This document shows, piece by piece, positions 5,717 to 63,945 of a DNA stretch of 64,000 nucleotides. The stretch comes from Diphasiastrum complanatum (lineage: Eukaryota; Streptophyta; Lycopodiopsida; Lycopodiales; Lycopodiaceae), in NCBI GenBank assembly GCA_029204225.1, contig CM055092.1, forward strand, positions 22,843,669 to 22,907,668, in the 5' to 3' direction. Within the stretch, counting starts at the first letter, position 1. Every line of letters begins with the position of its first letter. Both the position numbers and the translations under genes were made by a program. The notes beneath the pieces were generated by a model. The model had not been told where the DNA came from. It worked only from the letters and a program-made list of their open reading frames with translations, and searched no databases.

Positions 5717-6991
5717 AAACTCATAAGTTGAATAAAGAAGGTTTGGTACCTGTCAAAACTTTGAATATTTTGTCTGAGAGACCTTTAGTAGGACATCTGT
5801 TCTAAATATAGGTTGTTATTGAAATAGCTTCAGCCTAGAAGGACTTTGGAAGTGTCGCATGTGATAACATGCACTTTGTCAATTCAACTAAAGGTCTGTT
5901 CTTTCTCTCAGCAAGACCATTTGACTGAGGCAAATAGGAGGTAATGTATTGTTGTTCAATGTCGTTGTTAAGCCAATACTCGTTGAATTCAGTGGAGATG
6001 TATTCTCCCTCGTTGTCGGATCTCAGTTCTTTGATTCGTTTACTAGTTTGATTTTTTGCATGCTCTTTGAATTGTCTGAACTTGATGAAAGCCTCCGATT
6101 TATGTTTAATGAAGTAAACAACTATTCTTCTGAAAAATTTTCAATAAAGATAATAACATACTTTGCATCTAACAATGAAGGAGTTTGCATAGGTCCACAT
6201 ATATCTGAATGAACAACATCTAATAGACCTTTTGCTGCATGCTTGTGACTCGATCTAAAAAGAATCCCAGTTTGCTTTCCATGGATGCAGCTATGACAGA
6301 TATAGAGATCGACTTTGCCAGAAGGATAGTCGAGATCAAGTGCAAGGGATTGTCTGGACATGTTCGATGTAGATGAATAATTCAAGTGTCTTAAGTGATG
6401 ATGCCATAGTAATGCTTTATTGACAAGAACAGAGGGTTTCAAGGCTTGACTAGAATCAGAATAACAATGTGCCAATCTATATAAGTATCCATGTCTCTTG
6501 CCGAGTGCAAGGATCTTAATATTCCTATCGATAATTTTACATTGATCAGAATCAAACTCCACCTTATGACCTAAATATGTAATTCTACTTATTGATAATA
6601 GATTGGTAGTGAGTTTAGGAACATACAAGACTTTTGACAGTAGTTTGAATTGATCATGCTGGAATCTTAATCTTACAATACCTTCACCTTTGATAGTGTG
6701 AGTGCTATCATCACCAAGATGAACATACTTCTTTGTGCTGTAAGGCGTATAAGAATGAAAAATCTCACGATGATTGGTCATATGTTGAGTAGCTCTAGAA
6801 TTCAAAAACCATGAATCATTCAAATTCACGTATTTGTCTTTGACCATAAAAGCGCCTTCATCTATTTTGACTTCAAGAAATGCTGTAACTGTATTTGCTT
6901 GTTGATCAGGTTGCATGGCTGCATTCTTTGCTTTGAGAATTCGACAATCCTGGATCTCATGGACATTGCGTTTGCAATACCTGCAAAACAT
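5717..6991 (-). pseudogene. copia A protease and integrase, broken
   Basis: The open stretch 6122-6991 holds the pre-integrase and integrase start: the zinc-binding HHLRHLNYSS and CHSCIHGKQ segments, then VVHSDICGPM with the first catalytic Asp. The catalytic continuation (LRSDN-GEY and AERKN) lies in other frames at 5900-6060, so the gene is frameshifted. The aspartic protease site, normally DSGAT, reads NSRATQHMT, so its active Asp and Gly are lost. The N-terminal zinc knuckle is partly kept (CRYCKRNVHEIQDC). Confidence 0.88.
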
Positions 6992-13145: not shown

Positions 13146-16261
<3,116 letters not shown>

Positions 16262-17144
16262 AAGGCTGAAGCCTTGCCCTAGCTAGTATACTCAGGATAA
16301 TTGCTTGTCTAAATCTGTACACCTGGCTTGATGTGTACTAAGGAAGTGTAAACTGCAAAATAGAACATTCATGTATTAGTAATGGCCAAAAACATCAACA
16401 AAATAGAAAACTAATCATGATTCCAAAATAAAAATAAATAGAATTTATTACCTTAGAAATATCAACATTTTGCTGAAGGTTGAACCACTCAAAAAATAAC
16501 TTTGCATTGTATAATGTGTATCACCCACAGCTGAATGAATCATTTTGCTGGGGTGACTGCAAAAAAATTCAGCACACAAGAAATCAATTATGAAACAGAA
16601 TGAATTAGAATGAAACAATTACATTAGAATACTGATTTCAAAATGCTATTAAGAAAGACAGAGTTTACCTCCAAACTAACGATCTGCCAGTCTACGGAAT
16701 GGGGAACATCTATAGGAATATATTTACCTAGATATGGAAGGTATATATCTACATCCTTATGCGTATTTCTTGCCGAATTCATCTTGACACAAAAACCTTT
16801 AATAATATTATCTACATATCTCTTTAAAGAGATCAGGTTTAAACTCCAGTGGTCACTGCAAAATAAGACTGAAATTTCTTTAGCTGCAATTCTGAGAACT
16901 ATTTCCATTGACGATGCCAATGTTAATGCATAAAACAACAAGAAGCATTTAATATATCTTACTTTGTATGATAAGGGATGAGCAGATACTTTGTTGATGG
17001 TGTGAATCCACTTGTCAGACACTGTGACAATGTGTCATTATTCTCCTTGAAGGCTTGAAGCAGAAAGCTACTCAGCACCAGCAACTCGTTGGATGAATCT
17101 CTTGCAATGTCATATTGCAAGAGTGTAAGCCCGGACTCTATCAC
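16262..17144 (-). pseudogene. Ulp1/SENP-type (C48) cysteine protease-like gene, four exons, broken
   Basis: Four minus-strand blocks join through good splice sites. Exon 1 is 16963-17144 (donor GTAAGA). Exon 2 is 16669-16855 (acceptor TTTTGCAG, donor GTAAAC). Exon 3 is 16452-16556 (donor GTAATA). Exon 4 starts at 16352. Introns are 107, 112 and 99 bp and frame is kept at each join. Exon 2 begins in NDHWSL, the catalytic His-Trp of the C48 family. Exon 3 begins PQQNDSFSCG, matching the family's Gln and Cys site (Q-x-N-x-x-x-CG). Exon 4 has FRQAIILSIL, like the family's C-terminal helix. Two in-frame stops, TGA at 16521-16523 just after the Cys-Gly and TAG early in exon 4, make it a pseudogene. 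Known C48 enzymes cleave ubiquitin-like proteins, and many plant DNA transposons carry such genes. It may start upstream of 17144; I chose the first Met of exon 1. Confidence 0.72.
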
Positions 17145-17943
17145 AAGATCACTGATAGAAGCCTGTCTGTCTTTGAGACCTCGTAGAGGACCGATATGTA
17201 CGGACAGAATGTACGGTATATCGGACCTGTGCGAGTCGAATATAAGAGAGAGCGATTAGTTTTGAAGAAAGGCACACAAGTGCGATACGGGGAGACACGT
17301 AGGTAGATGTATCGGACCTCTGCGCATGGAACGCGGTAGGAGGAATATCGATTGTGAAGGACGTGCACAAGTGCGATATGCGGAGCGAAAAAAAAAGTGA
17401 AAAAAATTCATTGAAGTTTGTGATTTTATATCGCGGTTTGCACGTGCGAAAGAATGTCCTATCACATGTGTGGGAGTTTTATGGACAAATGCGAGGGAGA
17501 CATGTGTCACCCTGTCACATTACACGTGTGGGATTTGTACGAGCAAATGCGAGAGCGACACGTGCTGTCGAGCAAACGAATGAACATGCGACACGTGTCC
17601 AGGTGTCATTTCACATGTGTCCAGATGTCACCTCACACGTGCCAGTGCCTGTAGTCCAACTGAAAGTAGACACATGTCCTTTGTCCGTTGAGCACACGTG
17701 CAAAAATTTAGTATAAATGGCATGAAAACCGATTAATTTTTTACCTTTTCCGTTCTCAACATTCGCGGCATATCGCTCTTGTGTGCACGCATTGTTGTCC
17801 ATTTGCTTGCAACGATACCTACTTGCACACAAGTGTGATATTCAGTATCTGCCTGCCGTAGACATCCCTCTTGTGCGCCATCTTGATAGTTAGTTTTGTT
17901 TCAGTTCTCCCTCGCGCACAAGTGCGATATTCAAGTTACTGCC
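17145..17943. promoter_or_regulatory. two-sided promoter-like region with E-box/ACGTG array (locus 1)
   Basis: This lies head to head between the Ulp1-like gene and the plus-strand gene at 17944. About nine ACACGTG or CACATGTG sites sit at 17462-17700. GCGATAT-type motifs with an adjacent CAAG/CTTG word flank them on both sides, for example 17365-17379, 17770-17786 and 17914-17930. A TATAAAT box is at 17712-17718 on the plus strand. The layout matches 42875-43768. Frames of 60-120 codons inside are not believable genes. Promoter function is inferred. Confidence 0.6.
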
Positions 17944-19390
17944 ATGGTCTCTTCCTCAGGATCCTCACGAGATTCAGGCTTGAGTTCATTTCTTAGTGAA
18001 TTTGGGATCACTGAAAACCTAGACTACTTCCACAGCCTATTCAGGCCATATCTATATGTTTCAAGACTGCACAACCAAATTTTGACGTATTTTATGAACA
18101 TTATGTTAGATTTAGGGATATACTTAGTAAGCCTATTTTCTCCATAGGTCCACTCTAATACATGCATTATACTGATCTTGTTCATTTCTTCCCAGCTTTC
18201 AGACATAAACTTGATAGAATGTTTACCAAATTGTTTGATCTTTTCAAAAGCAGTTCAATGTGTCCATATTGCAACAAGAAATGTCGATTGGTTGAATATC
18301 AGAGTGGTTTTGTACTTTTTCTGTTAGTTTAGATCCCAGATGATGAGGAAGTTTCTGTTGCTGACCCTCCTTTTGCATCATCCTCTGTTCAGTCAGCTAT
18401 CAAGGATATCAGTCACTTTCTTATCGACACTCCTGATAAGGAAAGTGACTTTATTGATGTAAATACTGATGTTCTCTGGGATTCTTTTATTGGCCAAAAT
18501 ACACTTGATGATGAATCCAACCCTATAGAAGAGTCGAGATGTCTTTTCAATTTGCTTGTATATTATATTAATGACGATGTATATTTTACTACTGCTGATT
18601 TATGTAAATTTTTTGACTATCATGAAGACGAGGTTCCATGTTTATTATCCGGCACAATTTTTGAATTCTCCGACTTTGTAGATTTTGAAACATATGACCT
18701 TGTTGCTGGTATTGATTTTGATGATGAGGAGGGACTTATGACCGGTGAAGAATGTCTGACTAAGACTTTATCAAATATAGCTAAGGATGGGCGAGGCAGA
18801 CCATCCGATGAAGAATTCATGACATTTCAATCCCAAATGGGCTTCCCTCGTCTATCATTAATGCATTTCACTGATGATTCCACTTTAGTACATGGCCATT
18901 ATATTGATCATCCTGATCTGGTTGTTGCTGATGATGAAGAATGTGTAAGTGTTGAAACTTCCTTGCATTAGAATGTATTTAATCACTAAATGTGTTTTTG
19001 CTAACATATTTCCTATTGCAGGATGCTCTCATAATAGATGATTTTGCTGTGAGACGAGGTGGTTTTAGACAACATGCATCCTCATTCCAGAAGGACAGTG
19101 GACTGGGCCACTATCTTAGGCATTTCCTGAAGAATGAGATCTGTATTGCTCATTCCAAGCTGAGCCCAATCGAGAAGAGTTTTATAATGGCAGTTAAAGC
19201 TTTATCATTTTACCTAGAAGAACATAAATTTGTTAAGACAAATAAGATCATTTTTGTCAAAAGATCTTATGTTTTGAACATTTTAGACTTTACTGATGGG
19301 AATGTTCCTCTAAGGAGCTCCCATTATTCATTGTATTCCACTTATATTGAGCTTAGTGGAAATAAGGATAATGCACATCTATTAGATTAG
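17944..19390 (+). pseudogene. unknown protein gene with C-X2-C motif, two or three exons, damaged
   Basis: I do not recognise this family. It starts MVSSSGSSRDSGLSS at 17944. Near 18090 the coding frame shifts (or a short intron 18127-18195 is used), then a block reads FRHKLDRMFTKLFDLFKSSS and MCPYCNKKCRLVE, a possible half zinc site. An acidic region follows (18330-18953) with one in-frame TAG just before PDDEEVSVADPP. Exon end TGT|GTAAGT at 18953 and acceptor TTGCAG at 19021 join in frame to the last exon, 19022-19390. That exon contains DDFAVRRGGFRQHASS, GLGHYLRHFLKNEI, AHSKLSPIEKS and LRSSHYSLYSTYIELS. The last exon has two diverged copies at 22821-23410 and 24035-24620. It sits downstream of the promoter-like region and convergent with the transposase-like gene. 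Confidence 0.65.
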
Positions 19391-19576
19391 CAGAGAATTT
19401 CTTCATGACATAGAATCTGACACAAGATCTAATGATGAATAGTTGACACTTTGTATTTTGGTATAATACAATCAATACATTTACATTGAGTATTTCTCCT
19501 CTCTTGTTCAATGAATTTGCAAAGCGATTCTAAACATGTCATGATTTGATGACAATGATGATCTTCTACTCAACAA

Positions 19577-22227
19577 TCACCTAACTTTCTCTTCCTGTAT
19601 GAACTTGCATGCTTTTGTAAACTTGTTGTATTGTGTGGACTTTGTTATATGTCGAATCTGAACTCTGCGGTAGAACCACTGAAACAATTGACAAATGTAG
19701 TTTCGTTTTTCATTGGTTCCTCCATGTTGTGTATTTCGATGAAATGCTGCTCGTGCTTGCCAGTGTGACTTGTCCATCCCTTGCGATGACCATACACTCA
19801 AGCTTCCATATGTATTTGCAAAAAATGTTGTATGATCTCTTAGTATGTGCTGCATATGTCAAAATCATAATGTTAGTCTTATGTTTGGATCCAAATATAT
19901 ATGAAAATTTGAAAGCATTTTGAAAATTTTATACTAACCATGTAATGAGTGATGTGATCTTCTCCTCATGCTTTTGATACTGCATTAACAAACTCGACAC
20001 AAGTCCTTTGGACAGCTTTCTTATCAATATCAGAGTATTTTTCTTTTTTTAAAATAGCAATTATACTATCAAGCTTTTTCCATACATCAACTTTTAGTAC
20101 TCTGATTTTGCCGTCTTTCTCGAAGTCCTGAGTGGCAGCAATAATATCTGTCCAAAATGAGTGTTAAATATTAGAAGCCTTACCAGTATAATTTGATAGG
20201 AAACGACGCGCTTTTGCTCCTCCTATGCTTGGCTTAGTTGGCATGTTCCCATTCTTTCCTGAAAGCTTTTCATGTTTTTGAATTTTGACATGTCCTTTAT
20301 GGAGTCCTGCTTTTGATAAAACATCTTCTAATCGAGATATAGCTTCCTTTGCTAATGATGATGGCTTAGTATTCCAAGCAAAAACTACATGAAGATAAGT
20401 GATCTTTTCTATTAATCTAACTTTTGCATGAAGAGTGCAAACATGCACATTTTTTAAGGGAATAGGTAGCACATGATTCCAATTTGGATATGCATATTCT
20501 CTAGTAATTCTTGTACTCCTAGATACATCTTTTGCCATTTTCATGCAGTACAAACAAGGGTGTTTTGATGTAGCACCGTGAGAGACATTATACATACATT
20601 TGAATGTTTTCAAATCACTTGCTAAGTGCCATTCAACATTGAAGTCTCCAACTCCTGGAATATTGAGAAGTCCTCCATCCATATGGTCCTTGATGATCCT
20701 AGGATAAGATGTCCTTGAGAATATCCATGATAATATATCATGATCCTCTTTCAGCACCTGTCCAAAAAATTAATTAGACTTAGTTTACAATGTATTAATA
20801 TTATTCAATGAATGTAATGTAATAATGAGGCTAGTTAGTTGAAACGCTGCCAACCACCATATATCATTTTCTGACTGGACACTGAATCTGAAATCTTCTT
20901 GGTTCTCTGTTTGTGATAGTGCACTATTCATGAGAGTTATACTAAACCTCTCCATCTTCTGCTCTTTCACAATTTTTGACTCATCTAACTTAAGTACTAT
21001 GATTATTTTGCCATTCACCTTTTCATAGGTTATATCATAGAATGTGATGATGTATCTCAGCAAGTAATTTAGATCAACAAATAAATTGTTTGATGAATTA
21101 TAGAATATCAATCTTCCATCAGTTTCATACACCTCCTCAATATGAAATGGAGTTCCAGTGATCTTATGCATACCTATGTTTAATGTATCCCTCTCTTTCT
21201 TCAAGTGATATGTCCTAGGGATTGGGACTTTTCTAATTTGAACTTGCTTAAAAGCTTCTCTAATTAGTTTAAATATTGTTGCATATGTTTCCCTGCTTAT
21301 ACCTGCAAAATCACAAGCACCCTGAACTATAGTCTTATCTAATTTTTTTTTTGAATGTCCACCATCAAAGGCTCTGCTATTTTACACTTTACATTTGAAA
21401 TCCTATTGTTCATCATGATACGCTCAGTGGATTTGCAAGTCAATATTGTGTCCAATGACATTCCTAGTGAAGCATTGTCTTTAATATTCCGAGGAGCTAC
21501 TAATGCAGATCTGCAAAAAAAAACAGATATTTATTAGAATATCACCATAGCTGAAATTAAATCCAAATGTCATTGAAAAACTTACAGAAATCAGAATATG
21601 CTTACGTGAATGCACGGATCCTTCTATTTCGATAACCTTCTTTTGAAAGCATTTGAATATCCTTGTAAATTTGTCGCTTTCGCTTCTTACTTTCAGCCTT
21701 CTTCTTTGCCAAATCCACATCCTTCAATAATTGTAAGATGTCAATACAAATAGACTGTAAGATTGATTGCATTTGCTCTAGTTCTGATTTGATATGATTG
21801 TTATCTTCTGTAATGATTCATTATTATTTTTTAAGTTGTTCATTTTCTCCTAACGTCTTTTGGAGATGACAATCTCTATTCTAACAATAAGAGGATATCC
21901 AAATTAACTCACTTTCTAACAAGTGAACTTTATTCATATAAAGTTGTTTTCTATAGTTCTGCAATCTTTCACAATATCCTAGTAATCCATTATGCCCATT
22001 GCATATCCATGTACTAAATGAGTTATTGAAGGGAATGTGGGATGTGTCAAAGTGCTTGGATCTTGTGGATATAATGTTCCATCTATCCACAAATCCAAGT
22101 CTTTTTTTCCTTCTGTCTTGTAACGAGAACGATCCTCAGCAGATATTTGAATTCCTTTGCCTCCTCTTCTCTGCAAAGGTGCCAAATCAATAGGGATATC
22201 CACATGTAGATGATACAATGTCATCAT
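19577..22227 (-). pseudogene. spliced transposase-like gene, damaged
   Basis: Minus-strand exons join mostly in frame. A first part lies at 21880-22227 (PLQRRGGKGIQISAEDR). A basic coiled-coil exon ends at 21606. Exons at 20846-21510, 20184-20757, 19939-20147 and 19577-19849 follow. Introns at 21511-21605 (95 bp) and 19850-19938 (89 bp) are clean; 20148-20183 is only 36 bp; the join at 20758-20845 is unresolved. Motifs are an HTH-like GISRETYATIFKLIREAF, LKLDESKIV, SDLKTFKCMYNVSHGATSK with HPCLYC, then YGSLSVWSSQGMDKSHWQ and NTQHGGTNEK. These Asp- and Cys-containing blocks, ending in a QG-(E/D)-KSH helix, remind me of DDE-type transposases seen in several eukaryotes; the family name is uncertain. 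Damage: a frameshift at the A-run near 21345 and a TGA at 19966-19968 where Trp would fit (SKA-stop-GEDHITHYM). Confidence 0.62.
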
Positions 22228-22820
22228 AAAAATAATAATAGAGTAATCAGCTGCATCAAAGTACTATGACCAGATTCTATGAAGCAAAACAAAATACTCA
22301 TCTTTGATTATATTATATACTATGTACGATCAATCCAATCTCCATGCTTGTACGCTTGATTCAAATTTGGAAATGCCACTCATTTTTTTCATTCCAATAG
22401 GTAGTTGGCACTCATATTTCCATTCTCGTGGAAGAAATGCATATGTAAACATTTTGCAATTTTTTTTTATTCGAATTTGGAGATGGCGGTCATATTCTAG
22501 ATCCAGTGAAAATATTGCCCTTTTTGTAACCAATGGAGGGAATATTTTTGAATTTAGTCAAGTTATACTGCAAACTGTTAACAGTTCTTAACTATGACTA
22601 TAGACACTATGGTTAGATCATTGGGAGTCGGGGAGGCCTTGGGAGTGGTGTGGGCAAGCAAATAAACAATATTCTTTTTTTATTTTGATATTTTTCTATA
22701 TCCTACATGATAGTCCTTAAAAGGTCTTTTTGATATTGAGAACTCCTTTAATGACTAGGCAATATGTATATACAAAAAAAAAATTGTATCTAAAATGTAT
22801 TGTAGTACAAGTATCTCAAT
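22228..22820. other. no assigned gene; one small minus-strand frame
   Basis: It lies between the transposase-like gene and the second copy of the RRGG-type exon. A minus-strand frame at 22330-22533 (67 codons, LDLEYDRHLQIRIKK, FLPREWKYECQLP) could be an upstream exon of the transposase-like gene, but no splice join was found. Confidence 0.35.
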
Positions 22821-23410
22821 CTATTTCATCTTGGACACTTTCTCCAATGAAAGTTGGAACTTAGAGTCATGTAATAACTTTTCTCTTTTATATGGATCAA
22901 AGAGATGGTAGTCTTGGCAATTATTCAAATCAACATATGCATCATACAATGCAAAATGTGATGAGTTGAACATGGAATTTATTATTCTATATCCTAAGAT
23001 TTTATTTTCTTGACAAATATTATTCTATGTACTCTTGCAAAATTATGGCTTCCAAGAAATTGAGAAAGTGCCTTAATTGCCATAATCGTTGTTTCACCAT
23101 GTGGATGAAACCTTGAATGGACAACAATTATCTCATTATTTTTGAAGAGTTTCAAATAATGGCCTAGTGCATAATCTATTTGAAATTCACCAGTAGAGGA
23201 TTTTAGCCCTTCTCAATAGATTGCAAACTCATCAAGGTATAGAAGTTTTTATGATAAAGAGAATATGTGAGTTTCAAATTAAAATCTGATTCAAAAAAAT
23301 CTATTGATACAATGCAGATACATATTTATTCCACTTTGTCTTCTTTATTGACTAGTTCATCGTCAATATTATGACAACCTCTCAACGTCAATGAAATCAT
23401 AACATTGACA
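22821..23410 (-). pseudogene. copy 2 of the unknown terminal exon module, decayed
   Basis: The minus strand from about 23251 to the TAG at 22821-22823 reads LLYLDEFAI, ALGHYLKLFKNNEI, VVHSRFHPHGETTIMAIKAL, then ARVHRIIFVKK. Stops and frame changes follow. It is homologous to 19022-19390 and closer to copy 3. A preceding exon at about 23335-23400 (CHNIDDELVNKED) keeps the acidic upstream-exon context. An in-frame stop falls where copy 3 has RRGG. Confidence 0.72.
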
Positions 23411-24034
23411 CTTGGCTCCAGAAATCCAAGTTGATTTTGAAGTCTATTGAACTCCTATTCAATAGGTAAATCCGACTTTGTCTTCATGCATCTTCTCATT
23501 TGCCATTTTAAAATACTCATTTTAAAAAAAGAATTGATCATCATTGAGGTCATCCAGACCTACTTGACAATCATCAACCTCATAGTCAATTTAATCATAA
23601 AACTCATCCAGATTCATTATAAAATACAAAGAGCCTCAACCTCTATGAAATAAAAAAAAATATCCAATATATTCGAATAGACAAGAAAAGACTCATTATT
23701 TATATTGTAGTCGGTAAGAATAACTAAAAATTTAGACAGGAGGCCATACTTGGGCCATTAATTACACAAAATCGTTATTTACATAGGCTACTTCCCTATA
23801 AGGTGCTTCTTTCCTTAATTCTCCCGGGCTCCATTGAAATACCCCTTGGCCCTGTATTCCAGCCCCTACAATGGTTTTATAGAAGAGTGCAAATTCGTCA
23901 TACAAAATCGACATATTATGAAAATCTTCAAAAAGCATGCAAATTTATACAAGCCAATAGACAATAGACATACACAGATATGTTGTATATTGAAATAAGA
24001 AATATTACAAAGTGCAAATTTGAATATTCAAAGT
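23411..24034. other. no gene seen
   Basis: AT-rich spacer between two copies of the same exon module. A 68-codon plus-strand frame at 23447-23653 is rich in Ile and Leu from AT bias and has no motif. Confidence 0.5.
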
Positions 24035-24620
24035 CTACTCCATCTTTGACACTTTCTTTAATGAAAGTTGCAATTTGGAGTCATGCAACAACCTCCTTCT
24101 TTTGTATGGATTCAAGAGCTCAGAGTTCTCGTACTTACTTAGATCAACATAGGCAGCATAAACTACGAAATGTGATGATCTAAGCATGGAATTCACCAGT
24201 CCATCATATCCTAAAATTTTAAATGCAATAGTTTTCTTAGCAAATATTATTCTATGCACCCTCATAAAATTATGTCCTCCAGAAAGTGTCTGATTGCCAT
24301 AATCAATGTTTCACCACGTTGATGACACTTTGAATGGGCCACACTTATTTCATTGTTTTTGAAGAACTTCAGATAATGGCCCAGTGCATGATCTCTTAGA
24401 AATTCACCAGCAGAAGATCTCTGTCCTCCTCGGCGGATTGCAAACTCATCAAGATAAAGGATTTCTTGAAATAAACAAAAGTGTTAGATCAACATAAAAT
24501 CTAGCTATAGATATCAATTGCTATAATTCAAGACATAACACTTACGCATTTAGATGTTTCTTCCTCCGATGATTGTCTCATCGTCAATATTGTAACCACC
24601 TCTTGATGTTAATGAGGTCA
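24035..24620 (-). pseudogene. copy 3 of the unknown terminal exon module
   Basis: The minus strand from about 24458 reads LYLDEFAIRRGGQRSS, LGHYLKFFKNNEISVAHSK and ETLIMAIRHFLE. After a one-base frame change it reads MRVHRIIFAKKTIAFKILG, LRSSHFVVYAAYVDLS, LLNPYKRRRLL and a stop at 24035-24037. It is the best-preserved relative of 19022-19390 in the C-terminal part. An upstream exon (GGYNIDDETIIGG) lies at about 24540-24610. The function is unknown. The conserved RRGG, GHYL and LRSSH blocks suggest a folded domain under past selection. Confidence 0.75.
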
Positions 24621-29724: not shown

Positions 29725-30392
29725 TGTGAAATTTCAGAGTTTATGGACTGAAATTGATCTACATATGATCACAAAGAGTGATTGGTAGCTTGGGATCTTG
29801 ATCTATATCAAGACTAGCTTCCAAATCTAGCTTCTACTTGACAATCTTTGTGTTTCCAAGCAAGAACAATCAGAAAAGATGATCCACGGCTTCACACGTG
29901 TGAAGTACAGCTACTGTACAGCATGATACTAGAGAAATAATTTACTTATCATTTACAAAGCATTCATCCACAAAGAAAGTGCTTAAGAGAGTCAAAACAC
30001 AATGATAGCTTCACAAACCAAGATTTCTCATCATTAGCTCAATAATGGATCCATCATGGATCAAGTACAAATTCACCATAATCTCTCTCTAAGCTACATC
30101 CAGCACGTGTAGGACAGCTCATTGTGCTTATCCATAACTACTTTGGATAAGATCTATCAAGTTTGCCACATCATCCATTGGTGGTTTGTGTTGACCTTCT
30201 AGATTCCTACAATCTAGGACCTAACTCCTATAATTTAGGAGATGTCATATTAGACTCAAATGAAAGCTAATAAAAATAGATCTGAATATTAAAAGTGTCA
30301 TTTCACATGTTTGGACATGTCCTCACAAGTGTGGATCCACATAGATGTCTAATATTCATCAAAAACCATGTGAAAATTGCTAAATTCTAACA
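29725..30392 (-). repeat. 3' LTR of copia B, 668 bp
   Basis: It starts TGTGAAATTTCAGAG and ends AATTCTAACA. On the minus strand it is preceded by AATTGAGAAGGAG, the polypurine tract. The outer part matches 34967-35231. The inner part (about 30130-30250) is related to the truncated LTR at 58749-59202. Confidence 0.9.
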
Positions 30393-34966: not shown

Positions 34967-35231
34967 TGTGAAATTTCAGAGTTTATGGACTGAAATTGAT
35001 CTACAGATGATCACAAAGAGTGATTAGTAGCTTGGGATCTTGATCTACATCAAGACTAGCTTCCAAATCTAGCTTCTACTTGACAATCTTTGTGTTTCCA
35101 AGCAAGAACAATAAAAAAAAGATGATCCACGGCTTCACGCGTGTGAAGTATAGCTACTGTATGACCTGATAACAGATAAATAGTTTACTTATCATTTACA
35201 AAGCATTCATCCACAAAGAAAGTGCTTAACT
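34967..35231 (-). repeat. 5' LTR of copia B, truncated
   Basis: It matches the outer 265 bp of the 3' LTR and stops after AAAGTGCTTAA. The remaining ~400 bp are absent, replaced by unrelated DNA. Confidence 0.9.
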
Positions 35232-35842: not shown

Positions 35843-36491
35843 AATTAGTTTATTGTAAATTTTTTCTTTTTTAACTATTATGAATAATATGTTGATAAAC
35901 AACACTTTATGATCAATGAAATGTGAACTAAAATGTGAACTAAAAATCAAATGATCATTATGTCAAATTATTATGCTCTGACAAATTGAAGTTATTATCA
36001 GTTGAATATAACATGCTATCTTATGCATTCTATATTGAGAAATTTTCATAATCAAAATTTGACATTAATCTCGATATGGTATTAATGGGTAAAAATATAA
36101 GTGTGAGCTAAATTTGCACTTGAAAGGATGCTAAGTACCTTGCAATTGAGAGCCATGTGGTAGCTTGTTAAGCTAATTTGTTGGTAAAAAAATTGCAATG
36201 TTATACACATTTGTGTGTTTGCAAAGATAAATGTATAGTCGAACATTGTGGAAAAGTGTATTATTATTTCAAAGAAGATGCTTTTTAATTATAATATATA
36301 TATAATCAACGTTTCTAATTGTTCTCTTAATTAGTTCACACATCTATTGATATTGATGAGGTTTTTCAATTCTAAGTGATTGCGAGATGTGTTTGAAATG
36401 AAACTTTAGAAATGCAACATTGTAGAAAAATGTAATAATTTTAATTTGAAGACAATATATATTGACCACAATGTATCATTTTATGACAAAA
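35843..36491. other. no gene seen, AT-rich
   Basis: Between the palindrome cluster and the Tnp2 3' end. No motif or repeat was recognised. Confidence 0.5.
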
Positions 36492-36513
36492 TTATTTGTG
36501 ACATGTACAAACT

Positions 36514-39500
36514 TTATTCATCATCGCAAGATTCAAATTCATCAGCCAATACATCTTGCAACTCATCTCCGCTAAGATGATTTTCATCATCACTATCGAA
36601 ATCAAAACCTCTCTCAATATTGTCCTCATGCAAAGAATCATTGTTGTCCTCTTCATCATCTGAGTCATCGGAATCATGAGAATCAATTCTCAGGTTTTCA
36701 AGATTTATAAAACTTGAAGATATATGTACATCTTCATCAGATATACTTGTGTTGTCCAAATTTACGTCTTCCATTTCATTCTCAACATATGCATTTTCAA
36801 ATACATATCTTGAGCGTGGCTTAATTTGAACAACCGTACCAATAGCTTTTGTTTAGTCGATCTAGTTGAAAAACATACCTGCACATTTAGCAATGTTAGG
36901 ATTAGATATTAGATATGATCATATTTTAATTCACAATAAATAGATGTAATGAAAAAGTAGTGTAGATGATTAATATATCATTGATCACAATTGACAAAAA
37001 GAAAAAATGTGAAATTCATGCACACCTGTTCACAATGACGAGGCAACACCAATGTGTCTGAAAATCCATGCTTAATGTCTTGGTTGAATCGATAGCAAAA
37101 AATCCACTACAATCTTTTTTTATAGTTGCATTTGATCCTCTAGAGTTGATTTTGAACCATTTCATGTCAAACAACAAATATTTACCCATTTCACCAAAAC
37201 ACACCTCATATATGGCTTGTATGGTTTCTACATACTCAAGCTCTCCAGAAATTGGACTTTGATCTTGAGCACTACTCCGACTTTCTCGATGGAAGGATGC
37301 CATCACACCACAATCATAAGTTCGTTATTTCATTTCAATTGATTCAATGCGATGATGATGACCATATGCCCGCATTGCACTATACTTTCGATATTGTCAC
37401 ATATTGATTATAATTAAAACAATAATCAATCATCGTACAAAATTAAAATTGTTCACCTAAAAAAAATAGAGTTATTAGACAAACCTTCCAATCACATTCT
37501 CTTGCAAATTTCCATTCTGTGTCAGATATGAATTGTCCCTTTAATCTTGCTTGTTGGAGTGTATCAACCATCCAGTCTATGGTGCATTGGTTGGGAAATG
37601 GCTCAAGATCATGTGAAGGTGCAGGTTGACCTCTACGCCTATTGCGTAAGTGTCGATTTCTAGTCAATACCCTTTTTCTTTTTTTTCTTGTTCATATAAT
37701 TCCAACCACTTATCCATTACTCCTGAATTATATAGCATGAAGGCTGAAATTTTTTTTCTCAAAATAGGTGTCATTTTTTTAAGACTACCCATACCTTGAG
37801 GTTTTTCACCTTTCACCTCATTGCTTTTGTCATTATGCCATAGCCATGGAGAAGATAGATGTATTTGAAACAAAACTTCGGTAACATAAAATAGAGATTC
37901 TTGCACTAACCATATCTCTTACATGCTTCCCTCTGGCCTAGTTGCCTTTTGACGCACAAAATCTTTCAACACTTTCATGAATCTCTCCAAGAAAAACATC
38001 CACCTACATAAAATTTTAACACATTATTGAGAGCATTCTATTTATTAATTTAAAAGAATCACACTACATTTATTGAAACCACTAAAATCAAAATCATGTG
38101 TATTATACCTTGAGTGCATAAGACCGGCAATACCAACTTCTTGGACCAAGTGCACAAGCAAATGCACCTGTATGTCTAGGATAGAAGTTGGAAAATCCTT
38201 CTCAAGCATACATACAGCCTCCACCATATCTTCTTGTTTTGTTTGCAAGTCAATCTCACGAATCTCCTTATCACACATCCATCTACATCATGTTTGTAGT
38301 ATAACTAGATTTTAGTATGTTTTAATGATTTTATCAAACTTGTATTAGAAAAAAAAACATTCAATTTCATAAAATATCGATGTGAACAAAAAAAATTTAA
38401 GTACCTGACAACGGATGCTAATTTGTAAATGGCATCACAAAGTTGATCGGTTAGACAACCACAAATGCACATTGAAAATATGTACTCGACCATCTTCAAC
38501 CAATCATGAGATTTTAGACCATGGAGCTTTCTTTCAGTTGTAAATGATGTTCGTAGTGAATGAGCAAAACCTGTTGGTGTTCTCATCTCGCAAATGATTG
38601 ACCGTACATACTTATACTCTTCTTTCGTAAGAATCCAAGGGGCTCTTGGAATAGTATAAGTTTTTTCATCAATATATAATTTTGGCCAATACTCTTTTTT
38701 TGTTTTTGATTCTTGTACATCATGTCTGGCATAAATAGTATCTTTGTCGCCCACCAAGTGTTACCATATTGATTCACCCACATTTCTGAATATGTGCATA
38801 GGATCAAGCAAGTGATTGATCAAAAGGTTATTCCAATATAGTAAACAATGAAAGATGGATAGTCTTTTCATACCATTGATTGGCTTAGTCTCGGATTCAA
38901 TCCAAAGTTTGTGCCAATCTGCCACGGACATTCTTGTTTCTGATCTTCCTCTAAAGTCTCTTCTATGAGCATTTTTAAATGGATGATTTTCATCGTGCAA
39001 GTACTTGCGATGATTTTCATATACAACTTTGTCTAAATGACGTGAGTGTCGTGCATCAATATTTGGTCCACAAATGAGACACACATGATATCCAGAAGTT
39101 GTAAAACCTAAAAGAATCAAATCCAATTTGTGCTATGAATAGAATTTTTTTAAAGAATAAATATTGCATGCAAAAAAAATAAATATACGAAAATTACAAG
39201 TGATTTCATTTTATAGTCACCTGAACAATCGCCCAATCTTGGATAGTCATGCATACATAGTCCACATTAAAATCACACGCAACAAAAATGTATTGTCTTG
39301 AAGTGGACGTGAGATGTCATATGCTTGGACTCCCTTCCATAGTAGTTCTAATTCTTCAATCAATGGTGCAAATAGATATCCATATTTTTTACTATATGTT
39401 TTCCAGGAATTAGAACTGCTAGTATGAGATGTCCTTTTTTAATGCTTAGCCAAGGCGGAATGTTATAGTTGACCAACACCACTGGCCAAGTAGACCACAT

Positions 39501-40589
39501 GCTTGACCTCTTTTCAAAGGGATTAATCTCGTTTGTTGCAAGTCCAAATCTTATATTTCTTGTTTCACTTGCGAAACATGGATATTCTTTGTCAATGTGT
39601 TTTCATGCAGGAGAGTCTGGGGATACTCTTATGATCTCATCCGAAGAACGATGACTAGCATGCCAATTCACAAGTTCTGCAAGAGACTTGCAACGAAACA
39701 ATCGTTGCAAATCATGGGATTATTGGAAAGTGTCGTAACACCTTGCATGGGGTAGTGGTCCCTTGTAAGTCATCTTGATATCGAGGAGTATCGCATATAG
39801 GACAAGCTTTTAACCCCCGATACTCACCACGATATAAGATGCAATCTTTTGGACAAGCATGATGCAATGTGTAGTCCATTCCCATTGCATTCAACATTTT
39901 TCGTGCCTCACCTCTTGTCTCTAACATAGTGTTTCTTTTGGGAGTAGTTTGCGCAATAACCTGTACATAATCAAATGAATTTTCATAATATAAAATAAAA
40001 GATCATTTAGCCAACTAAAACATTTGACTTGAACAACACATCTACTAAAATCTTTTAAAAAAATCTCAATCTTATTTACCCAAATAAGGATGTAACACTT
40101 GTATCACTCCATTTATATTTTGCTTGGAGGTTCAATATAAGCAATGAAGCGGCCAAACGAGATGTCTTTGCTCCAAGATATAATGGTGTGTTTGATTCTT
40201 CTTTCATTTTTTTTTTCCTCGACACTAATAAATGATTCACTATCATGTTCAGTGCGTTCTTCCACGTCACGATGCTCATAGACGTTATTTATCAAGTTGT
40301 TCATGATTTCAACTTCATCTTGAATGCAAAAATCATTTTCAGCACTTGATCTTGATTCTGAAAAAGAAGAAGAAGAAGATTGAGACTGATTTGTTTTGGC
40401 ACGTTGTTGTTCATCTATTTTCATCATGGCCCTCAATCCCATACGCTCACGACATGATAGTTGATTTATGTGTGGCCCATCGTATGCCAATCTTGTTCTG
40501 GATATGGAGTGACTGTTGTCATCGTCACTAGAGCTAGATGACGATTCATAGTCCTTCAAACATGGGAAACAGATTAACATATTCATCAA
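36514..40589 (-). pseudogene. CACTA (En/Spm) Tnp2 transposase gene, frameshifted
   Basis: Minus-strand blocks follow the order of Tnp2 proteins. 40113-40589 is a Ser-rich and acidic N-terminal part. 39712-39927 reads ARKMLNAMGMDYTLHHACPK, DCILYRGEYRGLKACPICD. 38761-39126 reads GYHVCLICGPNIDAR, HPFKNAHRRDFRG and YWNNLLINHLLDPMHIFRN (catalytic region). 38305-38757 reads RAPWILTKEE, LHGLKSHDWLKMVEYIF. 38045-38278 is DUF4218-like (LEKDFPTSILDIQVHLLVHL). 37016-37306 is DUF4216-like (YEVCFGEMGKYLLFDMKWF). 36514-36774 is a very acidic tail. The blocks lie in different frames with AT-rich gaps, some probably introns and some decay. No CACTA termini were located with confidence. Confidence 0.88.
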
Positions 40590-41857
40590 TTAACATATAA
40601 GATTGTCATTCATGAAAATTAAAGCTAAAATTAAAACATGCAAATCAAACACCATATCTTAAATTAAGACATACAATATGAAGTATAAAAAAAAACAATT
40701 AATTGACATTCAACATATTGATCTCACTAAATAGATAAAATGTATTTTGATATTCACAAGGTACATGCTTGAGTTTGGCTCAAAGCCTTTTGTACACATT
40801 TTGGAAGAGGATGATTGAAGCTATCATCAAAGAAACTTACAGCCCGACGAGGGCCTTTGAAAAAGACGTTTTTTTAATTTTTTTTCTCATTTTCGTGGCC
40901 ATGTGGACCAATTGAAACCTTACCTTCGGGGTTCTACGTAACGTAGAATTTTTCAAATATAAATAAAATAAAAACTTTTTAAATATATTGTTGTTTCGTC
41001 GGACAGCATTGGGAAATGCTATTGATTGATGAGACCTGCCCTTCCAGCTCATCACTGCCCAAAGAGATCCAAAAATATTGAAAATGAATATGACAGATGG
41101 TTGAGATAAAAAAATCGATGTACCATTTATGTATATGCATTGTCAAACAATGGTTAACAAGGGTAACCAGAGCTAATTTGTGGCGCCAAGTAGATCAGTG
41201 TTTCAAATTTTTGCCAACACTTTTTCTCAGATTCACAGCTTTTTGTCTACACAAATTTTCAGATTCATAGTTCATTGTTTCAGATTTTTTCATGCAAATT
41301 ACGAATGGTGTCATCAAGGAAGCCGTGCTCCTCAATCGACTCTATGCTTCTATTCAACAAGACAGATGATAATGGATTATGGGTGCCAAGAAAATATTCA
41401 AAAAACTCTTGGGTTTTGATGCATCCATCATCAAGAGGAGCATTTCGAAAAAGGAAAAGGTCAAAACTATCATTTCGATCTTATTGGAAGGCCAAAATTT
41501 TGTATTTCAGAACATCATCAAGAGGAAAATCTATTTTTGAAATTCTAGTCCAACATGTATATATGCATTCAGAGATAAATGTGCAAGGATTCAACCGTCA
41601 GGATCACTAAAAAAACAACTGTGAGTATTGATATTTTTGATACTTTGACTTCTTTGTCATTCATAAATATCTAATAGTAAACTTGCCAATCTGATAATTT
41701 TTCTCTTGCAGATTTATATCCATCCAACATAAATAAATGAGAGCCCAGTGGATCTTTAGCAGGTGTGTTAGATATTACTCACACTGATATTGGACAGCTG
41801 CAATATCGAGGTAGAACTGCAAAAGATCTAGCTAAAATTGACTTCTTTCGCCTTTAC
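40590..41857. other. no assigned gene; possible unknown exons
   Basis: This lies between Tnp2 and the H3-like locus. Plus-strand frames at 41275-41610 (Arg/Lys/Ser-rich) and a parallel frame with GFDASIIKRSISKKEKVK near 41400-41510 look weakly coding, but nothing is recognised. 40800-40960 holds no motif. Confidence 0.35.
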
Positions 41858-42415
41858 CGCTCCCATGAAAAATGGACTAACTACAAAAACTGTACCATGG
41901 AAATCGAAACTAATACTATTCTGCAAAAAAAAAGCTTCGTCCTCTACTATTGCATCTGAAATTTCTGAGGTCTTATCTTTTAGCTCGGCACAAAATTTAA
42001 GACCTAATCTAAAGCTTCTACGTATATCTGAAAAAAAAATATCAAAAAAGTTGCCGAGACGATCAATTTTGTTAGCTAGGTAGGCTTCGTAATGATTATA
42101 ATGGTCAAAATAAATAAAAAACCTAGGCTGGATCGTATGGAATTCTCACAAAAAGATTATGTACAGGAGTAGAAATAGAAGTGGAAACAATATATATAGA
42201 TTTCTCTGTTAATTTGTCTAGCTCCTCTTGGATAATCAACACTTTTGGTGATGAAACCTGCTGAGGAGTTAGACGATTAACAAGAAGAGAAAGGGGTGAA
42301 GTTTTTCGATCTGAGTCAGATTCTCCAGCATTTGACTCAGAGCTCTCTTGGCTAGGATACGTCTAGGAGGAAGGGAAGCAGCTGGCCTTTGAGATCTAGC
42401 CTTCTTGGGGACAAC
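41858..42415 (-). pseudogene. decayed C-terminal extension of the H3-like gene
   Basis: Directly after the TAG at 42416-42418 the same minus-strand frame stays open and basic (VVPKKARSQRPAASLPPRR, ILAKRALSQ). A frame change leads to LVNRLTPQQVSSPKVLII and QEELDKLTEKSIYIVST. After a gap, 41858-42100 reads HYEAYLANKIDRLGNFF, RSFRLGLKFCAELKDKTSE and ISDAIVEDEAFFLQNS without a stop. This looks like a former long, partly coiled-coil tail fused to the histone fold, now broken. The extent and any introns are uncertain. Confidence 0.45.
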
Positions 42416-42874
42416 CTATTTTCTCTTCCTCCTAGAGGTAGTAGGCATGTTGGTTCTATCCAGAGGCAGGTCTCTGGAGGTGCTGGCATTATCAACATGC
42501 AGACTAGAATATCCGTCTTGAAGCCTTTTGAGAATGGCAAAATCCTTTGGCATGATGGTGACACGCTTACCATACACTGCCAAAAGACAAGTATCATCAA
42601 AAAATTGGGACAGAAAATCTTCTGCAGCACCCTGTAAGACCTGCGTGGCTGTCACGGCAAAACGAACATTCAGCCCAAGTGACAGAGTGATATTCCGAAC
42701 AGATCGGCCGAAAGGAGCTCTAGAGATCAACAATTCAAAAAAACTCTGGAGTATTCTGATCTCCCTCAGCCAGACCTGCTTCCTACCACACCCACGGCCA
42801 ATACCAGGGGAATTACGGGAATGGGACGACTGTACAGTGGTGATGGCACGGGCGATGAATTTGCTCTTGGCCAT
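42416..42874 (-). CDS. divergent histone H3-like protein, 152 aa
   Basis: The whole H3 fold is present. Residues 35-40 read WLREIR (alphaN), 54-60 PFGRSVR (alpha1), 71-72 RF (loop 1), 83-93 AAEDFLSQFFD (alpha2), 103-111 KRVTIMPKD (loop 2/alpha3). The spacing between these blocks equals canonical H3 with no indel (Leu of LREIR to Pro 18, Pro to Arg 17, Arg to Glu 14, Arg to Lys 32). Loop 1 is therefore not lengthened as in most CENH3 proteins. DNA-contact Arg and Lys in PFGRSVR, RF and KRVT are kept. The tail (residues 1-34) lacks the ARTKQTARKS region. The C terminus has about 34 extra residues ending SRRKRK, where canonical H3 stops soon after alpha3. I chose MAKSKF at 42874; a Met lies just upstream. 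It is head to head with the promoter-like region at 42875-43768. It could be a host variant, a pseudogenised fusion, or transposon cargo. Confidence 0.85.
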   Translation of the reverse strand: MAKSKFIARAITTVQSSHSRNSPGIGRGCGRKQVWLREIRILQSFFELLISRAPFGRSVRNITLSLGLNVRFAVTATQVLQGAAEDFLSQFFDDTCLLAVYGKRVTIMPKDFAILKRLQDGYSSLHVDNASTSRDLPLDRTNMPTTSRRKRK

Positions 42875-43768
42875 CATTCTCAGAAGAAGAAAATTTACAA
42901 AAAAAAAGTTTGAACAAAACAAAAGAGGATGAAAACAAAAAAAATTTGCGATGAAAGGGTGCTTGAGATCGATACCAGAACTGAATATCGATTTTGAGCG
43001 CAAGATCTACACAGATTATGTGAAAAAAAGAGATGCGCGCTCGAAAGCGATATTGCACTACCAGTGGTATCGGACTCGAGCACACCGTGAGAGGATGAAA
43101 GCTTGAACGGTGAAAGAGCACGCTTGAGAGCGATATCGGGAGCTAAAAGCGATTATTTTACAAAAAAAATGAAAATTCTGAGGACTTATATATACGAAAT
43201 TTTTACACATGTGAAAAGACAACAAAGACATGTGTCGTTAGATTATTAGGCCACGTGGAATGTCCGTACTGACAATGATGACCCAATTATGAGGCCACGT
43301 GGGCTGAAACACATGTGCGAATCTGTTATCGACGTGTGTCATTCTCGCACGTGACAGATGTCATATCAATCATTCTAGGTACGGCGCATTTATTTAACCA
43401 ACTACATGTCGACACGTGTTCCTTCGCCACTCCTCCACACGTGCAAATTTTTTTTATAAATAAGGCCTTTTCCGGTTCGGATTTTCACGCAAATTTACGA
43501 TTGCTTTGTCGGATATCGATTTCAAGTGCGCCGCTTCTTCTCATTACCTTTCGTTGACTATTTTGCGCCTGGATCCAATACTGCATCGTTCGATATCGCA
43601 TTCAAGCGCGCTTCGCATCCCTTTTCTTTTCTGCTCATTGTGCTCGGATCCGATACTCCAACTTCAAATATCTCTCTCGAGTGCACGTTGCCTTGACGTG
43701 CTTGTCTGACCTGTGGTTTGTGCCTGAGAGCGATATTTGAAACTTTAGTTCTATTATTTTTCTTTAAA
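42875..43768. promoter_or_regulatory. two-sided promoter-like region with E-box/ACGTG array (locus 2)
   Basis: About nine CACATGTG, CCACGTGG or ACACGTG sites lie at 43204-43443. GCGATAT-type motifs flank them: 43035-43053 and 43118-43136 in one orientation, 43513-43530 and 43591-43610 in the other, so the region is roughly palindromic. TATA boxes point outward: TATATAAG on the minus strand (plus coordinates 43185-43194) toward the H3-like gene, and TATAAATA at 43455-43462 on the plus strand. The plus-strand gene it would serve is lost at about 43790, where copia C begins. Same layout as 17145-17943. Confidence 0.6.
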
Positions 43769-43789
43769 ATGTCTAATTTTGTAGGCTGC

Positions 43790-45345
43790 AGACTTGTCGA
43801 TATATCTGTGAGGTGGTTTGCTAGTTCGTGATGATCTTCTAGGTAATAGAGGAAATTGATCATTTCCATCGTACTGTAGTTGCTAAACTGCAACATCATC
43901 AGCTTCTGATTTGTCGTTGATTTGTTGTTCGTCAGAAATAGAAGAGCTTGGACCTTCAATGGGAATAGTCGACTGAGGAATTGTAAAGTTCCGAATACGT
44001 CAGGAGAATCTGATAGGTCAACTATATGGGGACTGCCCTTTTCTTTGAGGTCTTGAAACTGATCTTCGATGAAGATGACATTCCGACTCTGAATATCTTC
44101 GACTCGATGGGATTGAACAACTTGTAGGCTTTGTGTAGCTGATGAAAACACATTTGATACTCTAGAAGTTGAGCTTCTTCCTGCATTATGAGCCACTCCG
44201 GACAAGTTCGCAAAAGCAGTACATCCAAAAACTCATAAGTTTGATAAAGAAGGTTTGGTACCTGTCCAAACTTCGAATGGTGCTTTGTCTGAGATACCTT
44301 TAGTAGGACATCTGTTCTGAATATAGGTTGCTATTGAAATAGCTTCAGCCCAGAAGCACTTCGGAAGTGTCGCATGTGATAACATGCACTTTGCCGATTC
44401 AACTAAGGTTATGTTCTTTCTCTCAAGAAGACCATTTGATTGAGGCGAATAGGAGGTAATGTGTTGTTGCTCAATGTCATTGTTAAGGCAATACTCCTTG
44501 AATTTGGTGGAGATGTATTCTCCCCCATTATCTGACCTCAATGTTTTGATTTGTTTGCCAATTTGATTCTCAGCATGCTCTTTGAATTGTCTGAATTTGA
44601 TGAAAGCCTCTGATTTTTGTTTAGTGAAATAAACAACTGTTCTTCTGGAGAATTCATCAATAAAAGTAGTGAAATACTTTGCATCTAGCAATGAAAGAGT
44701 TTGCATAGGTCCACATATATCTGTATGAACAACATCTAACAAACCTTTTGTTGCATGCATGTGGTTTGATCTAAAAGGAATCCTAGCCTGCTTTCCAAAG
44801 ATACAATTATGACAGACAGGGAGATCGACTTTACCAGAAGGATAGTCGAGATCAAGAACCATAGATTGTCTAGACATGTTCAAAACAGATGCATAATTCA
44901 AGTATCCTAAGCGATGATGCAATAGTAATGCTTTATTGACTAGAATAGAGGTTTTTAATGCTTGACTAGACTTAGAATAACAATGTACCAATCTATATAA
45001 GTAGGCCTGGCTCTTGCCAAGTGCAAGGATCTTATTACTCATGTCAATAATTTTGCATTGATCAGACTCAAATTCTACCTTATGTCCTAAATCTGTAATT
45101 CTACTTACTGATAACAGATTTGTAGAGAGTTTAGGAATATATAAGCCCTTTGATAGTAGTTTGAATTGATCATGCTGAAATTGCAATCTTACAATACCTT
45201 CACCTTCAATAGTGTGAGTACTATTGTCACCAAGATGAACAAATTTCTTTGTGTTGTAAGGCGTGTAGGAGTTAAGATCTCACATTGATTGGTCATGTGT
45301 TGTGAAGCACTAAAATCCAGAAACCATTACACATGATTTTCAGTT
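43790..45345 (-). pseudogene. copia C fragment: protease and integrase
   Basis: The open stretch 44233-45186 (317 codons) covers pre-integrase and integrase: LYIPKLSTNLLSVSRIT, zinc site HHRLGYLNYAS and CHNCIFGKQ, then catalytic VVHTDICGPM, LRSDNGGEYI and NGLLERKN. The upstream protease site reads DFSASQHMT in another frame, so it lacks the Gly. The downstream linker toward RT is in changed frames to about 43790 (VSNVFSSATQ). There is no RT, gag or LTR of its own. It is a close relative of copia A. Confidence 0.9.
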
Positions 45346-45448: not shown

Positions 45449-48509
<3,061 letters not shown>

Positions 48510-51855: not shown

Positions 51856-52222
51856 TGTGACTATTGCTTTCAAGAGTACATGAGCCAAGAACCTAATTTA
51901 AGACCCTACTATATTCTTAGCTTAACTTTTAATAGAATAAAGATAGGCTGGGGCTATCATTAGATTGGTTATGACATGTGAAAAATTACAAGCAAGAGAT
52001 AAAGTGAGAGAGAGTAGAAAAATATGTGTCTCTATAAAAACAAGTGTGGTGTTTCAATGTTGATCAATGCTTTTGATTGTTAATGCTTGTTGTTTGTCAA
52101 ATTGCCAATCTAGATCAACTTTTTGATGACTAGTTTTTTGATAGATTGTTAAGCAAGCATACAATCACTCTTGTGGTTCTTTCTAAGATCCATTTATGGT
52201 CCTAAAGTACAGTACTTTCACA
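51856..52222 (+). repeat. 5' LTR (plus strand) with a different upstream part
   Basis: It starts TGTGACTATTGC right after the copia D LTR and ends GTACTTTCACA before a primer site. A TATAAAAA box is at 52034-52041. From 52052 on it is the inverted copy of 536-706. Before 52052 it is unrelated to the left copy (707-979) and to the solo LTR at 53642. It may be cut at its left end by copia D. Confidence 0.65.
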
Positions 52223-52757
52223 TGGTATCAGAGCCAAGTACAAGAGCATAAGCCATTGATCTAATGCAAATCCATTTTTAGCAGGTATTGGTACTAAAAA
52301 CTAGCACTGAGAGGGCGAGCTAGAATCTACAATTTGGTGAGAGAATTTGATTTAAAGTTTGGTAGGGATCCAAATATGTAATGTCCACATGTGTGGGCAT
52401 CTTTGAACCTGCATTTGATGCACTACATTCATTTGATCACTAAAAAGCCAATTTGTGAGTTCTTGATGTGATTTTTGGTGCTAATCCTAGGAAAAGCTAT
52501 CAAGATTGAGTGCCATTGATTAGATTTGACATAGGGTCATGAGATCTAATTAATCTAGGCTGAAATAAACTTTTCATACTCTGTTTAAAAATAATACTAA
52601 TTGATATGGACCAATTGCTGCCCATCAGCATGGCACAAGCCCTTATATGATAATATTAGAGCTTGGCCTATCGCTAAAAATCTTTCTATTGTTTGGGAAG
52701 ACATGACTTAGATATAATAATGCTATTATGTTGTTAAGTGATATAGTTTCTTTTCAA
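52052..52757 (+). repeat. right arm of the 706-bp inverted repeat
   Basis: Reverse complement of 1-706 with 4 mismatches. It contains the LTR end, primer site and leader. An ATG (ATGGATAACAACTGA) follows at 52759, where gag would begin, but closes after four codons. Confidence 0.93.
52223..52235 (+). other. tRNA-Met primer binding site (plus strand)
   Basis: TGGTATCAGAGCC directly after the LTR end TTTCACA. Confidence 0.9.
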
Positions 52758-54559: not shown

Positions 54560-57572
<3,013 letters not shown>

Positions 57573-61287: not shown

Positions 61288-61458
<171 letters not shown>

Positions 61459-61674
61459 CACACATACACACGTCTTTCACTCTCCAATCTCCAATCTCTT
61501 TTTTCTCTTTCACACACTCTTTCATATCTCCTTTTCATTTTTCGCACATTTTAAAGTTTGATTCTCTTTCTCACTCTCTCATAAATCTCTCTCTCACACA
61601 CACACTTTTTCATTTTTCAGATTTGATATCTTTCCGAGTTCTTTTCACAACTTCATATCTTTCTCTCAATAGTC

Positions 61675-62017: not shown

Positions 62018-62126
<109 letters not shown>

Positions 62127-63710: not shown

Positions 63711-63945
<235 letters not shown>

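Follow-up and report, generated by a model that had tools for sequence, protein, structure and literature searches.

The locus described here raises the question of what a divergent histone H3-like frame is doing among the mobile elements of the clubmoss Diphasiastrum complanatum: is it a free-standing histone gene, a gene carried by an element, or a piece of a longer coding sequence? The window, as the whole analysed stretch of 64,000 nucleotides is called here, covers 22,843,669-22,907,668 of contig CM055092.1 (GCA_029204225.1) and was compared with the rest of the genome for this purpose. On balance, from comparison of sequences, the frame is probably the decayed first exon of a transposon-borne fusion gene acting in anti-silencing. 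The histone assignment is firm, with a match to the Pfam Histone family (PF00125) of 67.6 bits (E=1.5e-18) and with H3 as the top matches in the PDB (5.5e-17). The fold aligns with the PDB H3 chains without a gap across LREIR, PFGR and KRVTIMPKD, which bears out the H3 block order and spacing claimed in an earlier note on this DNA. That note was right that a frame exists at its coordinates, 42416..42874; the plus strand there does not encode it, and the frame is found on the minus strand with 153 codons (Table 1). A structure prediction made with the window protein alone had a mean pLDDT of 38 and was left unused, and an Rfam scan of the window gave no match.

The frame ends at a TAG that follows the residues KRK. 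The same site is occupied by Gln in 19 of 20 other copies and by Arg in the remaining one, and the sole database relative, P0001 from D. complanatum, also reads through it. The "extra basic C-terminus" of the earlier note is thus no true end of the protein. Following the TAG and a small deletion, the remainder of exon 1 has fallen out of frame, with open pieces left at 42123-42362 and 41828-42145. Because the TAG is joined by this deletion, which shifts the frame downstream, the window copy is dead and its histone frame is open by chance. Several oddities are private to it, among them the tip AKSKFIAR and the Tyr at the H113 position, which had been read correctly but is His in 26 of the 27 copies compared; the many diverged residues reported earlier are present, several of them being likewise changes of this one copy. 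Among 1110 candidates, a protein search for relatives 264-840 aa long gave no match.

Table 1. Positions of the histone locus, its element and related features in the window.
Feature	Position	Strand	Basis and remarks
Histone H3-like frame	42416..42877	minus (42877->42416)	153 codons + TAG; first part of fusion-gene exon 1, cut short by the nonsense codon
Rest of exon 1 (basic linker, acidic Ser-rich stretch, unnamed domain)	41834..42415	minus	comparison with P0001, L010 and L023
Family A element remnant, ~3 kb	40825..43780	minus	L018 aligned to the window by blastn at 88.3% and 90.2% identity
3' terminal inverted repeat CATCAAAGAAACTTACAGCCCGACGAGGGCCTTT	40825..40858	plus	3 mismatches against the end in other copies
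TATA-box-like TATATATAAG, histone gene	43185..43194	minus	59 nt before first leader motif; sequence and arm alignment
TATA-box-like TATAAATAAGG, opposite rightward arm	43455..43465	plus	57 nt before first leader motif
Three leader motifs like GATATCGCTCTCAAGCG, histone leader	42960..43137	minus	starts 43137, 43054, 42976; ~80 nt apart
Three leader motifs, opposite arm	43512..43683	plus	starts 43512, 43592, 43667; 75-80 nt apart
Copia fragment adjoining the truncated end of the element	43781..45327	minus	82.9% identical to copia at 5268-6812; rve and gag_pre-integrs domains
Second, diverged element (family-D-like)	16302..22754	minus	collinear tblastx; sequence and tblastn

A search of the D. 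complanatum genome (1.74 Gb in 5176 contigs) for multicopy relatives, as the earlier note had proposed, was productive. The best 150 of 6911 loose candidates were scored and all had E<=3.6e-65, the window's own place among them; the window copy apart, identity across these 150 was 73-82%. The places are scattered across many contigs, and by hand count the matched stretch is free of stops in 44 of the 150 and carries a stop in 106. Twenty stretches of 10 kb were fetched for comparison, and similarity between the copies was found to reach far past the histone and to stop at sharply defined ends; identity is mostly 85-95%, and near 80% for one diverged copy. In four of the places (L012, L015, L016 and L017) a promoter/leader segment is tandemly duplicated upstream of the histone. 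The possibility of a single old processed H3 pseudogene is ruled out, as promoter, leader and terminal repeats are copied along with the histone and the gene has introns.

The unit that is copied, referred to here as the family A element, measures 9.0, 8.5 and 8.8 kb in L018, L020 and L035, the three measured elements that have the histone as well as both ends. A derivative of 6.5 kb, L034, lacks the histone. One end reads CATTAGAGAAAATATGGGCCC... and the other, inverted, CATTAGAGAAACTTAGAGCCC..., with 26 of 33 positions alike by hand count, and the element is therefore bounded by imperfect terminal inverted repeats (CATTAGAGAAA...). A 110-nt probe of the 5' end gave, for the best 40 of 1418 candidates, at least 99% identity over 108-110 nt, which suggests that some element copies may be young. 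Inspection by eye of the four copies with both ends (L018, L020, L034 and L035) showed no target-site duplication, and the ends, which read CATTAG/CTAATG, are not of the CACTA/En-Spm type. Upstream of the histone and on the same strand lie protein pieces with the stretches LKLDESEI and GDLKTLKCM. A search for relatives gave thirteen proteins, of which two, at 32-34% identity, came from general sequence archives; five of the thirteen were aligned. LKLDE and AxD[LM]K are conserved in the pieces. The protein is putatively a DDE-type transposase, by which the element would move, and Pfam named no convincing family in the pieces scanned, neither a hAT transposase or dimerisation domain nor a MULE transposase or a VANC-type DNA-binding part.

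The histone gene shares a divergent promoter with an oppositely directed gene, which starts at the other promoter arm and has no Pfam match. Each arm carries a TATA-like box followed by three leader motifs at a spacing of about 80 nt. The two arms align with a local score of 101, and 300 dinucleotide shuffles reached at most 50. In the window a search for the leader motif that tolerated up to 4 mismatches in its 17 positions found seven matches within 42960-43737, one being the query itself, and four more elsewhere, each with 4 mismatches. The "matching promoter layout" of the earlier note is accordingly seen here as one divergent promoter with two alignable arms, and again in a second related element at 22.75-16.3 kb. 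Of the element represented by L018, the window remnant keeps -909 to +1059 and +3111 to +4115, counted from the histone ATG; about 2 kb have been deleted internally and the part upstream of -909 is missing, as is the rightward gene of the opposite arm.

The histone element is separate from the neighbouring copia and CACTA-type genes and has its own ends and putative transposase. The suggestion of a mobile-element cargo therefore holds in that an element carries and multiplies the histone, and fails for the neighbours, which are not the carrier. The copia fragment is unrelated sequence with its junction at 43781, and the degraded CACTA-type (tnp2) transposase at 36-40.6 kb is separated from the histone by the 3' end of the element at 40825. 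In this tnp2 remnant (36000-40600, minus strand) DUF4218 scores 41.8 bits and Transposase_21 scores 28.0 bits, just below the cut-off of 28.6. The second element of the window contains putative transposase pieces at 20164-21171, a divergent promoter whose ATATCGCACTTGTG-type motifs, near 17.3-18.0 kb, have the same layout as in family A, and C48 protease exons near 16.3-17.2 kb; a histone fold was not found within 16302..22754. Two more fragments of related elements lie at 22839-24613 on the plus strand and match L018 from about -2574 to -1511 in reverse orientation.

The reading of the frame as a free-standing histone was abandoned, since the histone is encoded in exon 1 of a gene that fuses it to a protease. 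The predicted order of this gene is histone, basic KRK linker, acidic Ser-rich stretch, unnamed domain and Ulp1/C48-like protease. Of the 14 copies showing the site, 11 have a GTAAG donor directly behind PYEN at the end of exon 1; this exon is followed, in fitting phases, by exons of 187 nt (RHWSLNIL...EFDSLL), 105 nt (CVQQNDAFSCAW...) and about 351 nt, the sum of the four exons being about 590 codons. The stretches of C48 are present in order, namely His-Trp, Asp and Gln-x5-Cys, which are presumably the catalytic residues. For family A the C48 score is 20.4 bits, just below the cut-off of 20.7, with a query made from the exon 1 end of L018 and exons 2-4 of L012; exons 2-4 alone score 15.6 bits, also below it. 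A sequence search of the PDB with the family A exons gave no Ulp1/SENP protein, only weak capsid matches (E>=0.085). The second element of the window, in contrast, reaches 39.3 bits for Peptidase_C48 from exon pieces with X at two stops, and is 41% identical to family A over 186 aa.

Further families of these histones were found with a genome search that used the Arabidopsis CENH3 sequence for a query. The best 150 of 5403 candidates were scored, 13 places lying near 108 bits and 137 at 63-77 bits; the 13 form a separate score group of canonical-like H3. Ten of the 150 places were fetched, of which seven belong to a family B, one to a family C, one to a family D and one to canonical H3. The single family D locus, with one stop in exon 1 and one in exon 4, contains both parts of the fusion above the Pfam cut-offs (Histone 90.5 bits, C48 29.8 bits) and is 32% identical to family A over exon 1, after which its C48 exons follow. 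Family C is 30% identical to exon 1 of family A over 370 residues and continues with the pieces HHW and QQVDSFSCGW, its C48 score of 17.7 bits being below the cut-off. The fusion layout is thus common to families A, C and D at 30-32% identity of exon 1. Set against Peptidase C48 proper (Ulp1/SENP, PF02902), the clubmoss protease differs in being fused behind a histone, with the curated cut-off passed by family D and the second element of the window and not by families A and C.

Family B is an observation of its own: its members (L036-L042; KWLQDIRSYQKSVKFLIPRAPFVRLVKEI...) are multicopy, short, CENH3-like histones with Pro/Ser-rich N-termini. In the one copy searched, no C48 match was found in the 1.5 kb downstream of the histone.

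To describe the histone part, 27 family A copies were compared, picked from the best-scoring and mostly stop-free places. The N-terminal tail had been reported as absent; it is only shortened, being 34 residues long with an H3-type tip, AKSKFIAR in the window copy, so that a long tail with the usual modifiable lysines is indeed lacking. The tip is ARTKSTAR in 12 of the 27 copies. Lys occurs at H3 position 4 in all 27, and position 9 is mostly without Lys (Ala in 25, Val in one and Lys in one, L028). The single family C tail reads ARTKQTTRPKS, with its Lys-Ser placed one residue later. Between H3.1 and the commonest residues of the 27 copies there are 47 identities over 86 gapless positions, and loop 1 in this alignment has the length of H3 without the lengthening of CENH3, as the earlier note had held in arguing against an ordinary CENH3. 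That assignment was rejected on loop 1 length and copy number. The clubmoss family thus has the H3 fold in common with plant CENH3 and canonical H3 and differs from both in its short tail, C-terminal fusion and high copy number. A tree placed families A, C and D together (93/88) and apart from the H3 and CENH3 rows; with 11 of 18 inner branches open, it is compatible with an origin of the histone from either H3 or CENH3.

H3-like histones within transposons are already known from fungi. The H3-like (H3L) genes of Pyrenophora tritici-repentis and Pseudocercospora fijiensis lie inside hAT transposons (PMC3538342; PMC6710886) and, in the accessible text of these papers, resemble the clubmoss case in that an H3-like histone is multiplied between inverted repeats in multi-gene elements of several kb. 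They differ in having a hAT transposase and, in P. fijiensis, 8-bp target duplications, and the same text describes no protease fusion. The clubmoss element shows neither a hAT domain nor a target duplication, and it has an H3-C48 fusion beginning in exon 1 whose layout is kept by three diverged families. A second parallel is offered by the VANDAL elements of Arabidopsis, plant DNA transposons that carry VANC anti-silencing genes, some with an Ulp1 domain; according to the part of the source available, the VANC system reads short motifs in stretches of the elements that do not code for protein, and KIU (Kaonashi) Ulp1 genes occur in Arabidopsis MULEs (PMC13317346, citing Hoen et al. 2006). The Ulp1 domain there is likewise part of an accessory gene. 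The same text assigns VANDAL/VANC MULEs to the non-TIR kind (PMC13317346), whereas the clubmoss element has inverted repeats; its protease is partnered with an H3 histone, and Pfam gave no MULE transposase domain for the scanned pieces. By analogy, the leader motifs and the C48 domain would fit the VANC pattern, with the histone in place of the DNA-binding part. A literature search on transposon-encoded histones, on Ulp1/SUMO proteases with transposons or H3 and on lycophyte H3, in which most subscription papers were outside the coverage, brought up no histone-protease fusion, and phrase searches on transposon-encoded histones gave no paper at all. H3 in transposons and Ulp1 in plant MULEs are therefore known, and the fusion of the two, being in no paper found, is apparently new.

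The likeliest role of the fusion, judged from these parallels, would be anti-silencing. The histone part would place the fusion protein into or onto nucleosomes, and the repeated leader motifs may help it to recognise the chromatin of the element itself. The protease part, if active, could then act on chromatin proteins required for silencing and strip them of SUMO or a related modifier, by which the element would stay transcribable. A tail with Lys4 and mostly without Lys9 might in addition give chromatin that is able to bear active marks and hard to mark as heterochromatic; this idea is weakened by the Lys-Ser of family C one residue later and by the Lys9 of L028. The term "chromatin-modifying", offered as a possibility in the earlier note, is likewise an inference. 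A histone joined to a SUMO-protease-like part in three diverged families of one clubmoss genome would represent a new route to meddling with chromatin, and it makes testable the escape of a transposon from silencing by supplying its own nucleosome part. It should also be noted that counts of H3 and CENH3 genes in lycophyte genomes are possibly inflated by element-borne copies.

A stronger version of this proposal can be put forward only tentatively. Here the transposon lineage would encode its own chromatin, in the form of an H3 replacement histone with a SUMO protease and few silencing-mark lysines that is deposited over the element. If true, anti-silencing would work through nucleosome composition, unlike the DNA binding of VANC.

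It is unlikely, although the joining of an H3-type fold to an enzyme would suit it, that the histone part instead steers the proteins or the insertion of the element to certain chromatin, where the protease would loosen or process host factors. Most copies contain LLIPxAPF, AAEDFL and KDF, which we take to be letters typical of plant CENH3, and the CENP-T and CENP-S histone-fold models give weak scores on the element-borne histones, both of which could point to such selfish targeting. Against it, the places are scattered over many contigs, loop 1 lacks the CENH3 lengthening and the tree, most of whose inner branches are open, does not group the family with CENH3.

Whether the histone part has been maintained at all was approached through substitution patterns. 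Pairwise dN/dS among the 27 copies was about 0.43-0.45 (fold 0.41, tail 0.58, linker 0.32), only moderately under the baseline from non-coding pseudo-frames, which was 0.60-0.67 for the leader and spanned 0.41-1.06 when every control stretch is counted. No drop is seen for the C-terminal domain, with 0.62 in frame against 0.53 and 0.55 out of frame. As dN/dS lies near the baseline and this domain is without a drop, most differences between the copies are attributed to neutral decay. Changes private to one copy comprised 98 replacements and 42 silent changes, while those shared by at least 3 of 26 copies comprised 43 replacements, one of them a stop, and 41 silent changes (p=0.0065 against private; p=0.053 for the fold alone). 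Two contigs carry the near-identical copies L010 and L011, so one pair was omitted from the dN/dS and L011 from the test of shared and private changes; the second copy of L013 coincides with L014 and was also omitted. When families A and C are compared, synonymous sites being close to saturation, the tip is conserved at 7 of 9 positions and the fold at 48% of 89, compared with 30% for the linker and 29% for the C-terminal domain. The lower share of replacements among the shared changes, together with a tip and fold that are the best kept parts between A and C, suggests that the fusion gene has probably been under constraint in the moving lineage.

These figures also bear on the possibility that a host H3 was captured once and carried without benefit, as in the fungal hAT transduplications. 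There is precedent for captured H3 in the fungal elements (PMC3538342; PMC6710886, as far as their accessible text goes), many of the clubmoss copies are broken (a stop occurs in 106 of the 150 stretches matched), and pairwise dN/dS is near the neutral baseline. A mere passenger would nevertheless hardly be expected to keep its fusion layout in three families at 30-32% identity of exon 1, with tip and fold best kept, nor would the shared changes be poorer in replacements, and this explanation is considered improbable as well.

Some giant viruses carry H3-like histones and Ulp1-like proteases. The locus is nevertheless very unlikely to be a fragment of an endogenous large DNA virus, even as a multi-gene element with shared promoter motifs, since at the sensitivity used IMG/VR contained no relative of the histone (one query sequence) or of the transposase, Pfam named no viral core gene in the scanned pieces, and the element has short inverted-repeat ends and a transposase-like gene. 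An ordinary expanded family of host H3 variants that merely sits among transposons is largely refuted and has almost no probability left, for all that the frames have a TATA box and leader and are long and open at some places, as the copies share inverted-repeat ends at unrelated flanks and the same additional genes, and the 13 canonical-like H3 places score as a separate group. Anti-silencing by a transposon-borne fusion is therefore retained as the preferred reading.

A few further repeats of the window were recorded. Positions 1-706 and 52052-52757 form a 706-bp inverted repeat, 99.4% identical, with arms about 51 kb apart, which probably represents an element that moved recently, or the ends of one. 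A copia element that has long open frames at 30.4-34.3 kb is flanked by direct repeats of about 263 bp, 93.9% identical, at 29725-29986 and 34967-35229. Dinucleotide arrays of unusual length, perfect or nearly so and with up to 116 units, are present at 14023-14213, 46213-46354, 54563-54696, 61313-61471, 62023-62123 and 63711-63942.
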